A DNA stretch of 47,789 bases from Candidatus Nitrosopumilus sp. (GTDB taxonomy: Archaea > Thermoproteota > Nitrososphaeria > Nitrososphaerales > Nitrosopumilaceae): the NCBI GenBank assembly GCA_003331425.1, contig QOOS01000010.1:1-47789 (forward strand), read 5' to 3'. Position numbers and translations under genes: made by a program. Positions 39,708-42,291 of the stretch are shown in pieces. Below the pieces are notes generated by a model that saw only the letters and a program-made list of their open reading frames with translations, made no database searches and had not been told where the DNA came from. How positions within the stretch are numbered: position 1 is the first letter of the stretch; every line of letters starts with the position of its first letter.

Positions 39708-40127
39708 CTAGTCTTGTGAAATTTTAATAATTTCATCCCAGATGAGTTTTGGAACAGGCATAACAGATAATCTAGAAATTCTAACTAATTCCCAATCTTT
39801 GAACTTTTTATTATTTTTTATTTCAGTTAATGTAACTGGTCTTTTCAATGTTTTTTTATATTTTACATCAACTACAATAAAACGTTCAACATCCTCTTTT
39901 GGATTAGAATAGGGTTTTGAAGTAACTTGCATTATTCCAACTGCTTGTCTTTCAACACCAGTATGATAAAATAAAATCAAATCACCTGATTTCATTTCTC
40001 TCATATGCTTTAATGCTAAATTATTGTGAACACCATCCCAAACAGTAGTTTTATCTTTTTTTAGTTGTTCAAAATTATACCCTCTAGGTCCACTTGGTTC
40101 TTGTTTTGCTAACCAATAGTTTACCAT
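39708..40127 (-). CDS. EVE-domain protein
   Basis: A 139-residue EVE-domain protein, related to human THYN1 and to PUA folds. The start NYWLAKQEPSGPRGYNFEQL matches the family opening (WLxKxEPxxYs), followed by WDGVHNNLALKHMREMKSGD and LILFYHTGVERQAVGIMQV. EVE domains are thought to bind modified bases in DNA or RNA. I choose the ATG at 40127 over a TTG at 40142, because the CATTAAACG TATA-like element lies about 27 nt upstream of 40127. Confidence 0.9.
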   Translation of the reverse strand: MVNYWLAKQEPSGPRGYNFEQLKKDKTTVWDGVHNNLALKHMREMKSGDLILFYHTGVERQAVGIMQVTSKPYSNPKEDVERFIVVDVKYKKTLKRPVTLTEIKNNKKFKDWELVRISRLSVMPVPKLIWDEIIKISQD

Positions 40128-40176
40128 TATTGTATTTTGCAAATTACTAACGTTTAATGGTTTTTGAGAAATTTAA

Positions 40177-40361
40177 TGTTCCCCGGTTCTGACTCGCAAA
40201 ATTTCATTGGACATAGCCATACGCCTCATCACGTTCTGAAACCGGGGTTGCCCATAATGTAGCACACCTGGGTGAATTAGAAATCATTGGTATCGTTACG
40301 ATCAGCGTCATCCCAATCCGTCTGTGTGCCTGCTCTTGGGCGATTAGTCATTAGATGAACC
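40177..40361 (-). ncRNA. Candidate structured non-coding RNA of unknown family
   Basis: The 40143-40395 gap holds no gene but a G+C-rich island with strong pairing. Helix A: CCCCGGTT (40181-40188) with AACCGGGG (40240-40247), 8 perfect pairs. Nested hairpin B: GCCCA/TGGGC (40250-40254/40337-40341), GCACAC/GTGTGC (40262-40267/40324-40329), ATTGG/CCAAT (40286-40290/40313-40317), ATCG/CGAT (40292-40295/40299-40302). I favour the minus strand because a TATA-like TTTTTTATAAATTT lies just right of it (about 40378-40391), and because on that strand helix A is followed by ACA (40179-40177), and contains GTGATGA (40232-40226), which recall H/ACA and kink-turn elements. No match to tRNA, 5S, SRP or RNase P cores was seen. 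Confidence 0.55.
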
Positions 40362-40377
40362 TACTAAAAACTATTAG

Positions 40378-40395: not shown

Positions 40396-40680
40396 TTGAA
40401 TTTTTGTGAAGGGTTTTTGGAAATTAGAAATCAAAGAAAATTTTTAGTGGGATTAATAATTTTGATTTTAGGTTCATTTGTAATAGTTTTTGATTATCCA
40501 CAAATTGAATATTTTAATAATTTAGAGAGTGATAATTCTATAACATTAGAAATAGAGCAAAAAGAAATTTTTCAAAAAATCCTAATTGAGTTTACAATTG
40601 GAGTAATTCTTTTGATAATTGGTATAGTGCTAATTTTGATATCAATGTTAAAGAGATTTGAGAATAGATTCAGACAATGA
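40396..40680 (+). CDS. Small two-span membrane protein
   Basis: A protein of up to 94 residues with two hydrophobic segments (FLVGLIILILGSFVIVFDYP and IGVILLIIGIVLILISMLKR) and a charged linker. The written start is TTG at 40396; a second TTG at 40417 better fits a TATA-like TTTATAAA centred near 40384, so the true protein may be seven residues shorter. Its last 33 bases overlap the end of pheT on the other strand. Function unknown. Confidence 0.55.
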   Translation: MNFCEGFLEIRNQRKFLVGLIILILGSFVIVFDYPQIEYFNNLESDNSITLEIEQKEIFQKILIEFTIGVILLIIGIVLILISMLKRFENRFRQ

Positions 40681-42291
40681 AATTTCAAATCCAACAACAG
40701 GTACACGGATTTTATAATTTTCAATAATAGTAGAATCAATTTCTCCAATTATTCCAATAATATTTCCATTCAAAATAATATTTGCACAATGTCCATCTTT
40801 AAAACTAGAGTGAGAGATAGTTTTTGTTTGAATTTGAATACTAAAGCCAATTTTTAATAGAGTTTGTAGTACAGATTTAATTTCAGTAAAATTTGCATCT
40901 TTGTGAGCACTAATTACAGCAAGATTAATTTTTTCAGAGATAGGTTGTTCAAGATTGAAAATGTTTCCAGTTTCAAACATTTTTTGAGGATATGATTCAT
41001 GAATATTTCTTGAAAGATTTTCAAGTAATCCAGGAAGTATTGAATCTCGCAAAATAGTATGTTCTTGACTTTTTGAATCAAGGACAGAAATAATATTTTT
41101 AGAATCTCTATTTGTCATTTCATATAATACACGTTTACTGCTCAAACTTGAGTTTAATGCCTCAAGAAATCCCAACCCAATCATTGTTTGATTAAGAGAT
41201 TTCAGATGGAGTGATACAGGGTTAGTTTGTCCTATTGTTTGAGAAGGCGATACAGTAGGCTCAAAATTTTGAATTCCATAACCTAAAGCAACTTCTTCAA
41301 CCAAATCCATTGGACCAAATATATCAAATCTATATGCAGGAATTGTGCAAACAATTTTTTTTCCTTTTGAAATTGCATTCAATCTAGATTTTTTTAATGA
41401 GGAAATAATTTTTGGAGTTGAAAGATCTAAACCAAGAGTCTGATTAATCAAAGAAGAGTCAATGGATAATTTCTTTTCTTGAAGTTTAGGTGAAGAATTT
41501 TTTGCTCCAGAGATTTGGATATTTTCTAAGCTAAATCCTGCACTTTGTAAAATGGTTGCAACAACTGAAAGCATATCTTCAGCATCAGCCTTATTGATTC
41601 CAGTAACTTCTACAAAGAGATTTTTTGTTTTGGTTGTTACAGTAGTTATTCCAGCATTAATTATTGGAGGAAAAGAAACAGTATTCTTATTGGAATCAAT
41701 AATTATTGGAACTTTAGAAGATTGTCCAAGTAAGTGACCATAATCTTTTCCTGTTTCAGTGTCAGAAATTATTTCAGATATTGAAAGTTCTTTTTCAGAA
41801 TTTAATGGAATGAATTTATGGTTTTTATCCACAGTAGTATATGTCAAAGGAAAAGAAATCTTATCCAAATCATGTATTCCAATAGATGATTTTTTTCTTT
41901 TTCTTCCAATTCCAAAGTGAAGATCCTCTTGCATTGTCATTAATTGTTTAATGGTTTTATCATCAATTTTGCCATTTTTAGCAATAATTCCAGTCACAAA
42001 TGGACGAATTTTTGAAACAGTAGGTTTGACAGTTATTGTATAATTTTTAGAACTTTTTACAGTTAATTTCAGTAAACCAGTTTTGATACCAAGTAATCCT
42101 TGTAATCCAAGCGCAATTCCAATGTCAGTTGAATAATCTGGACGATTTGGACTATATTCAATTCGAACTAAGTCTTTATCTTCAGATTCAATATCCAATC
42201 CCAAAAAAGGCAATGAATCAGAAATCTGTTTTTTTGAAACCTTACCAATTAGTTTTTGGAGACGAGAATAAGATAATTCGATTACTGGCAT
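40648..42291 (-). CDS. pheT: Phenylalanyl-tRNA synthetase beta subunit
   Basis: The beta chain of the heterotetrameric PheRS, which carries the B3/B4 editing region and the B5 domains. At 547 residues it is the short archaeal/eukaryotic form. It starts MPVIELSYSRLQKLIGKVSK and includes IEYSPNRPDYSTDIGIALGL, ALNSSLSSKRVLYEMTNRDS and the class II-like C-terminal fold with PQKMFETGNIFNLE. It overlaps pheS by 10 bp and is co-transcribed with it. Confidence 0.95.
   Translation of the reverse strand: MPVIELSYSRLQKLIGKVSKKQISDSLPFLGLDIESEDKDLVRIEYSPNRPDYSTDIGIALGLQGLLGIKTGLLKLTVKSSKNYTITVKPTVSKIRPFVTGIIAKNGKIDDKTIKQLMTMQEDLHFGIGRKRKKSSIGIHDLDKISFPLTYTTVDKNHKFIPLNSEKELSISEIISDTETGKDYGHLLGQSSKVPIIIDSNKNTVSFPPIINAGITTVTTKTKNLFVEVTGINKADAEDMLSVVATILQSAGFSLENIQISGAKNSSPKLQEKKLSIDSSLINQTLGLDLSTPKIISSLKKSRLNAISKGKKIVCTIPAYRFDIFGPMDLVEEVALGYGIQNFEPTVSPSQTIGQTNPVSLHLKSLNQTMIGLGFLEALNSSLSSKRVLYEMTNRDSKNIISVLDSKSQEHTILRDSILPGLLENLSRNIHESYPQKMFETGNIFNLEQPISEKINLAVISAHKDANFTEIKSVLQTLLKIGFSIQIQTKTISHSSFKDGHCANIILNGNIIGIIGEIDSTIIENYKIRVPVVGFEISLSESILKSL

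Follow-up and report, generated by a model that had tools for sequence, protein, structure and literature searches.

The minus strand of the gap between pheT and an EVE-domain gene carries an RNA gene of about 174 nt, and this RNA is very probably a two-hairpin archaeal box H/ACA guide RNA. It is assigned to the H/ACA class because the archaeal H/ACA signature is found twice within one RNA. Judged by its sequence it is a guide of known kind and a new family within that kind, without a match in Rfam at gathering score. The gene was found in the window, that is, the whole stretch of 47,789 nucleotides analyzed here, for which an earlier note had pointed to a structured, unannotated RNA on this strand. 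Conservation and covariation bear this out, and the suggestion in the same note that the RNA might be a guide also stands, with its C/D-like flavor giving way to the H/ACA type.

Locus and Gene Extent

The RNA gene corresponds to 40174–40347 of the minus strand, which is the match of covariance model R1 in the gene's own genome; the 192-base query likewise has a single match there. RNA positions (p) are obtained by subtracting the window coordinate from 40348, and the ends of the RNA would lie at about 40341–40345 (5′) and about 40174 (3′). The gene is located 3′ of pheT, with the following features around it:

39708–40142, minus strand: EVE-domain gene (PF01878 match)
40362–40370, minus strand: TATA-like box TTTTTAGTA, located 20 nt upstream of helix P0
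40396–40680, plus strand: open reading frame of 94 aa, between the promoter region of the RNA and pheT, divergent from the RNA gene
40648–42291, minus strand: pheT (Phe-tRNA synthetase beta domains)

The minus-strand TATA-like element proposed earlier is recovered as an AT-rich, TATA-like sequence upstream of the gene, and forms a conserved block in most of the 31 rows viewed of the 73 aligned, being missing in L044–L046, L048, L049 and L051. This block presumably functions as a promoter element, and the RNA is probably transcribed from its own minus-strand promoter after pheT. The 94-aa reading frame has no Pfam match. Over 1.5 kb around the RNA, pheT is present in 84 of 90 loci and the EVE-domain gene in 71 of 90 (some genomes being counted twice), the corresponding numbers for the divergent loci being 25 of 30 and 11 of 30.

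The gap is indeed the G+C-rich island that had been described, with a G+C content of 0.44 in 40155–40324 versus 0.21–0.31 in windows that lie outside the gene or overlap no more than its edge. We consider the gene not to be coding because the open reading frames of at least 30 aa that overlap it are 30, 32 and 35 aa long, and because the homologues in the genus alignment differ among themselves by 1-nt gaps. Three tRNAs are found in the window by ARAGORN and Rfam. Within the gap ARAGORN gives no tRNA and Rfam 15, a check that the earlier note had proposed, gives no RNA at gathering score, so that no known family is assigned; the loci of ten relatives show no Rfam family at gathering score either. 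The best permissive Rfam match, on the minus strand, is to the H/ACA family SNORA62 (26.4 bits versus a cut-off of 80), which proves nothing alone and was kept out of the evidence. The minus strand folds at −54.2 kcal/mol (z −1.72, with 10 of 200 shuffles equally good) and the plus strand reaches z −0.70 (44 of 200); taken by itself, the folding energy exceeds chance by no more than a modest margin, and what places the RNA far above chance is its conservation with covariation.

Conservation and Covariation

The query matches 76 of the 150 genomes searched as relatives (own genome included), all belonging to one genus. Three of these DNA matches are partial (G004, G062 and G080) and were left out, and the remaining 73 loci gave 70 distinct rows (alignment A1) with a mean column identity of 88%. 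In this genus set 96.6% of the cells form standard pairs and 12 of the 42 pairs change on both sides, with 107 both-side change cells versus 30.9 in shuffles (reached by 0 of 500) and with slid registers pairing only 27–50%. Unaided, RNAalifold predicts 31 pairs, including helix P0, both lower stems and the upper stem of hairpin 1; the upper stem of hairpin 2 is not among its predictions from the genus alignment. The order-wide alignment A3 (37 rows) combines 15 of the 70 genus rows with 22 of the 30 divergent loci, L130, L133, L134 and L136–L140 being omitted. Here 91.9% of the cells are paired, both-side changes occur at 34 of the 42 pairs, and 185 both-side cells stand against 54.3 in shuffles (0 of 500), with slid partners at 30–50%, figures to be read with the fact that A3, unlike A1, was built by fitting to the model and is biased in its favor. 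The comparison of relatives' gaps for covarying pairs, likewise proposed in the earlier note, thus returns strong covariation.

In an order-level sample of 400 genomes, model R1 finds the RNA in 252, spread over 43 of 66 genera; the good genomes of the order give 152 of 209, and a phylum sample gives 74 of 398, four of them outside the order. A separate set in which 38 of 38 match is no frequency, all but G309 having already been R1 matches. Model R3, built on hairpin 1, matches 107 of the 398 genomes in a phylum sample, and these represent 36 of 163 genera. The idea that the RNA is lineage-specific does not survive these counts, given the 252 order genomes and the hairpin 1 matches outside the order.

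Some loci depart from the one-copy, two-hairpin arrangement. Genomes G330 and G388 each hold two R1 matches instead of one, possibly a duplicated guide or a mixed assembly. By eye, four loci of family f8 (L133, L134, L138 and L140) hold hairpin 2 only, and none of the six listed genomes of f8 is matched by R3; hairpin 1 may have been lost or moved in this family. Three loci of family f2 (L136, L178 and L179) have a spacer of about 85 nt or more between the P0-closed hairpin 1 and hairpin 2, and because this spacer splits hairpin 1 with P0 from hairpin 2, the two guides can be separate units.

Anatomy of the Two Hairpins

Hairpin 1 and the helix P0 that closes it comprise the following elements, in RNA order:

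40337–40341 (p7–11), minus strand: helix P0, 5′ strand GCCCA, pairs with 40250–40254
40324–40330 (p18–24), minus strand: lower stem, 5′ strand, pairs with 40261–40267
40318–40322 (p26–30), minus strand: pocket 5′ guide GACGG, complementary to 23S CCGUC
40311–40317 (p31–37), minus strand: upper stem, 5′ strand, pairs with 40276–40282
40308–40310, minus strand: K-turn, 5′ strand UGA, tandem G.A (G39-A64, A40-G63)
40283–40286, minus strand: K-turn, 3′ strand UGAU, from the genus alignment
40276–40282 (p66–72), minus strand: upper stem, 3′ strand, pairs with 40311–40317
40268–40273, minus strand: pocket 3′ guide ACCCAG, complementary to 23S CUGGGU
40261–40267 (p81–87), minus strand: lower stem, 3′ strand, pairs with 40324–40330
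40258–40260 (p88–90), minus strand: box ACA, directly 3′ of the lower stem
40250–40254 (p94–98), minus strand: helix P0, 3′ strand UGGGC, pairs with 40337–40341

The hairpin at 40250–40341 noted earlier is closed, on reading the sequence, by GCCCA/TGGGC and has more stacked helices inside. Helix P0 encloses hairpin 1 together with its ACA box, and in the order-wide set of 37 all five of its pairs change on both sides, with 94.0% of cells paired. When P0 strands were swapped between 23 divergent homologues (23 of the 32 hand-picked rows of alignment A4), a homologue's own strands paired better in 413 of 506 comparisons, with means of −13.24 kcal/mol for own versus −7.98 kcal/mol for swapped strands. 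A wider swap test over 35 rows, many of them near relatives, is weaker, own strands averaging −10.95 versus −9.27 kcal/mol and, in 27 of the 35 rows, doing better than the mean of the swapped ones.

The lower stem of hairpin 1 shows GC/CG, CG/UA and GC/AU exchanges in the genus set and both-side changes at six of its seven pairs order-wide. The 3′ side of the pocket reads UCACCCAG (p73–80); its ACCCAG recurs in 36 of the 37 order-wide rows, and GACGG on the 5′ side is exact in 35 of 37. Above the upper stem lie a U.U, a tandem G.A (39.64 and 40.63) and then the apical hairpin, with GA/GA in 70 of 70 genus rows and in 36 and 35 of the 37 order-wide rows; in L124, L128, L131 and L132 a short K-loop (UGA...UGA) seems, by eye, to take the place of the K-turn. 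Box ACA is found in 69 of 70 genus rows, in all 32 rows of A4 and in 33 of the 37 rows of A3, of which three others read AC- through an alignment gap and one reads CCA. The geometry of the hairpin is that of a 10-layer GA stem with 15 nt to ACA.

Hairpin 2 comprises, again in RNA order:

40240–40247 (p101–108), minus strand: lower stem, 5′ strand CCCCGGUU, pairs with 40181–40188
40235–40237 (p111–113), minus strand: pocket 5′ guide AGA, complementary to 23S UCU
40228–40233 (p115–120), minus strand: upper stem, 5′ strand, pairs with 40197–40202
40204–40227, minus strand: K-turn and apical hairpin, G121 A122...AAU-G143 A144, tandem G.A
40197–40202 (p146–151), minus strand: upper stem, 3′ strand, pairs with 40228–40233
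40188–40193 (p155–160), minus strand: pocket 3′ guide GUCAGA, of which the final A pairs as well atop the lower stem
40181–40188 (p160–167), minus strand: lower stem, 3′ strand AACCGGGG, pairs with 40240–40247
40177–40179 (p169–171), minus strand: box ACA, one unpaired base after the lower stem

The lower stem is the 8-bp helix of the earlier note, which reads as perfect (CCCCGGTT/AACCGGGG) and which has the minus-strand ACA just after it, as had been said; within it, pair 107-161 exchanges U-A for G-C and C-G in the genus set. Box ACA is present in 70 of 70 genus rows and 37 of 37 order-wide rows. The upper stem has 80.2% of cells paired and both-side changes at six of six pairs order-wide, and counts 10 layers only if A113.G153 and A114.C152 are included, else 8. 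It leads into the tandem G.A (121.144 and 122.143), accompanied by an AAU bulge and, farther up, a GG/CC stem, with GA/GA in 70 and 68 of 70 genus rows and in 36 and 37 of 37 order-wide rows. In the pocket, AGA is found in 29 of 37 order-wide rows (AAA, GGA or AGU in the other 8), GUCAG in all 37 and GUCAGA in 31. The distance from the pocket-closing pair to ACA is 15 or 14 nt, and 97 of 98 sequences place the start of the guide GUCAG 14 nt from ACA.

Assignment to the H/ACA Class

Both hairpins consist of a lower stem, a pocket and an upper stem, with covarying helices, and both carry the tandem G.A of a K-turn or K-loop in the upper stem. An ACA lies 3′ of each lower stem, after a one-base gap in hairpin 2 and followed by P0 in hairpin 1. 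A GA stem of 10 layers (in hairpin 2 only if the A.G and A.C pairs are counted) and 14 or 15 nt to ACA agree with the expected 10 bp and 14–15 (16) nt. In PMC4652768, productive archaeal guides are described as having a 10-bp GA stem and 14–15 nt from the pocket-closing pair to ACA, and replacement of the K-turn by a K-loop is described for archaeal H/ACA RNAs. The succession of ACA and helix P0 is a departure from the textbook H/ACA form. The genome encodes Cbf5 (TIGR00425, 377.3 bits versus a cut-off of 238.15). L7Ae would bind the K-turns of both hairpins, and Cbf5, with Nop10 and Gar1, the ACA boxes, helix P0 closing hairpin 1 below its box; each pocket would capture rRNA, in which Cbf5 would isomerize the exposed uridine to pseudouridine. 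The size that had been called unusual for a guide would reflect the need to accommodate two H/ACA hairpins.

A box C/D guide was considered and rejected. The GTGATGA at 40226–40232 is present as described in the earlier note, its reading as a box C is not upheld: GUGAUGA is the 5′ strand of the hairpin 2 upper stem plus the GA of the K-turn, and box C is not kept in relatives, which read GCGAGGA or CCAAGGA. No CUGA precedes a terminal stem in the sequence read. SRP RNA, RNase P RNA and tRNA, none of which the earlier note had recognized here, have no match in the gap, and the genome's own RNase P RNA (RF00373) and SRP RNA (RF01857) are found elsewhere.

Candidate rRNA Targets

Site numbers are those of E. 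coli unless they refer to this genome's own rRNA, in whose 23S U2023 is placed at 1921 by alignment, U2025 at 1923 by counting on, and 2678–2693 at 2579–2594 through an offset of 99 taken from two nearby aligned sites; target bases left open in the pocket are bracketed. Within the single genome the best pocket pairings are no better than those with dinucleotide-shuffled rRNA (28 of 100 shuffles for hairpin 1, 67 of 100 for hairpin 2), and no target is therefore claimed from it.

For hairpin 1 we give somewhat better than even credence to the peptidyl-transferase loop of 23S rRNA, CUGGGU[UUAGA]CCGUC, with U2585/U2586 exposed. When up to five open target bases are allowed this loop is the best site, with 11 bp and 1 of 25 shuffles as good, and the pairing uses exactly the conserved GACGG and ACCCAG; it leaves five target bases open, not two, and its helix starts 13 nt from ACA. 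The assignment is put forward as a proposal because the wider opening was tried after the canonical two-base form had failed. In the single genome the best canonical two-base site for hairpin 1, with 10 bp, lies in 16S rRNA, GGUGAA[UA]CGUC at SSU U1317 (E. coli 1376); it also has the best canonical mean over the homologues, and would make the RNA an H/ACA guide of which hairpin 1 serves the small subunit. We consider this unlikely, as the site is no better than shuffled rRNA (28 of 100, 17 of 40 and 12 of 25), needs a U at position 73 where 4 of 37 rows have C, leaves the conserved G30, C78, A79 and G80 unexplained, and lies 16 nt from ACA, opening the top pair of the 10-layer stem.

For hairpin 2 the balance tips slightly in favor of a predicted target in the 23S stretch that separates helix 69 from helix 70, either UCUGAC[U1921 C]UCU or, one register along, U1923. 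Over 40 homologues U2025 and U2023 are the two best sites, with 0 of 40 rRNA shuffles as good; a repeat run is weaker, with 2 of 25 shuffles (2-base gap) or 1 of 25 (wider gaps), and the 5′ guide pairing amounts to only 3 bp. U1921 is favored because the bases complementary to UCUGAC are kept (GUCAG in 37 of 37 rows, GUCAGA in 31) and the three preceding them vary order-wide (CGA in 22 of 37).

Compensatory guide–rRNA change was looked for in the 24 of 30 genomes with a 23S match, of which 23 were read and G110, with a 27-base match, was omitted. The peptidyl-transferase site is identical (GAGCUGGGUUUAGACCGUC) in 19 of the 23, the pattern having missed 2 and hit the wrong place in 2, and the helix 69 site (GUAACUCUGACUCUC) is found in 23 of 23. 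The rRNA sites are invariant where read, leaving no rRNA change for a guide to compensate. At L161 (G091) and L163 (G095) the match to 23S rRNA breaks at query base 77, with foreign sequence after GTAACTCTGACTCTC. An archaeal 23S intron has probably inserted there, within the presumed target of hairpin 2, and the 5′ guide of hairpin 2 would accordingly fit there only after splicing.

The weak 5′ guide of hairpin 2 and the wide target opening of hairpin 1 would also suit an RNA that retains the guide scaffold, has lost modification and serves only as an rRNA chaperone at the peptidyl-transferase center and helix 69/70. We think this improbable, as the ACA boxes, the K-turns and the 14–15-nt spacing are kept, which fits a catalytic particle. 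Even less credible is a role in cis, as an attenuator or sensor at the 3′ end of pheT or in the EVE-gene leader, and not as a guide. Such a role would agree with the common minus-strand orientation of the EVE gene, the RNA and pheT in the window and with the neighbor counts given above, but the RNA persists in 19 of 30 divergent loci in which no EVE gene was found, the hairpins are separated by a spacer (L136, L178 and L179) or hairpin 2 is kept alone, and a cis sensor would need neither ACA boxes nor L7Ae-type K-turns in both hairpins. As for 23S U920 (E. coli 807), GCUCGC[UA]GUUC, to be guided by hairpin 2 via a GCGAGU that is invariant within the genus, it has the top single-genome score when 18 nt to ACA is allowed and was dropped as highly improbable, since the site does lie 18 nt from ACA, 15 of the 37 order-wide rows have TGA, TGG, CGG or TCA in place of the required CGA, and in relatives the 5′ partner is not constant either.

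Relatives outside the Order

The two-hairpin H/ACA guide has partial counterparts beyond its order. Nineteen loci from outside the order (with L199 also fetched and not counted) were obtained on an R1 or R3 match, and the GACGG plus CCCA guide, kept in 19 of 19, is thus shared partly by selection. In 15 of the 19 a different second hairpin is found, with GAGAG and then an ACA-side guide (L167–L170, L189–L193, L195, L197 and L200–L203); none was found in the other 4. The sequence before its ACA is GUUAC in 9 loci, GUUGC in 4, GUCAC in 1 and GUGAC in 1, and the 13 of 19 loci with GUUAC or GUUGC could pair with 23S GUAAC[UCUGA]CUCUC with a five-base opening. This opening lies around U1915 and U1917, the helix 69 site; according to PMC2584109, U1915 and U1917 are pseudouridines in Haloarcula, Psi1915/1917 being known archaeal sites. 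The parallel five-base opening supports that proposed for hairpin 1. Several of the hairpins from outside the order look, by eye, to be closed by a P0-like helix after ACA. We tentatively suggest, at somewhat less than even confidence, that hairpin 1 represents an ancient, phylum-wide guide class with the ACA inside a P0-closed hairpin and a five-base opening (UUAGA at the peptidyl-transferase center, UCUGA at helix 69). If true, one wide-pocket hairpin could modify two uridines (2585/2586; 1915/1917), and search rules built on an ACA at a free 3′ end and a two-base gap could be broadened by taking in P0 and the five-base opening.

Significance and Comparison with Known Systems

The RNA predicts pseudouridines at the peptidyl-transferase center and next to helix 69, and the covariance models find it across the order and hairpin 1 across the phylum. 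If the genome is thaumarchaeal, the RNA would be a defined H/ACA guide for Thaumarchaeota. According to a 2012 Rfam survey, none of the Thaumarchaeota surveyed had annotated snoRNAs and Euryarchaeota were at that time the sole known source of H/ACA RNAs (PMC3486863), and according to another paper the sRNAs of no thaumarchaeote had been studied by 2012 (PMC3432209). The open-access papers of a limited library yielded no description of such a guide in Thaumarchaeota. A genome paper (PMC3043068) speaks of a conserved noncoding RNA, not further specified, that is shared with N. maritimus and could be the RNA of the present gap.

The H/ACA guides of Pyrococcus, Archaeoglobus and Haloferax (Pab/Afu/Hvo), compared here by their published features, likewise have a pocket, a K-turn or K-loop and an ACA, and they share the 10-layer GA stem with 14–15 nt to ACA according to the rule given in PMC4652768. 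Two Haloferax guides have been proposed for the peptidyl-transferase center (2586) and helix 69 (1915/1917), as stated in PMC2584109, and the target areas put forward here are those same two. The RNA described here differs in that hairpin 1 would open five target bases, hairpin 2 would use GUCAGA of its 3′ strand (U1921/1923), helix P0 comes after the ACA of hairpin 1, and there is no Rfam match at gathering score.

Pyrobaculum belongs to the same phylum. Its H/ACA-like RNAs sR201–sR210 are K-turn-bearing guide hairpins, as here (PMC4652768). Their lower stem is as a rule truncated and its ends are free, whereas the lower stems of the present RNA are of 7 and 8 bp. Taken as eukaryotic H/ACA snoRNAs, yeast snR3 and snR84 differ in kind from the archaeal RNA reported here, and the likeness is one of position.

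In yeast, snR3 and snR84 direct Psi2264 and Psi2266 of 25S rRNA. With yeast Psi2258 equivalent to 1915 and Psi2260 to 1917, as given in a table of PMC2584109, these sites correspond by counting on to 1921 and 1923, which are the two candidate sites of hairpin 2.
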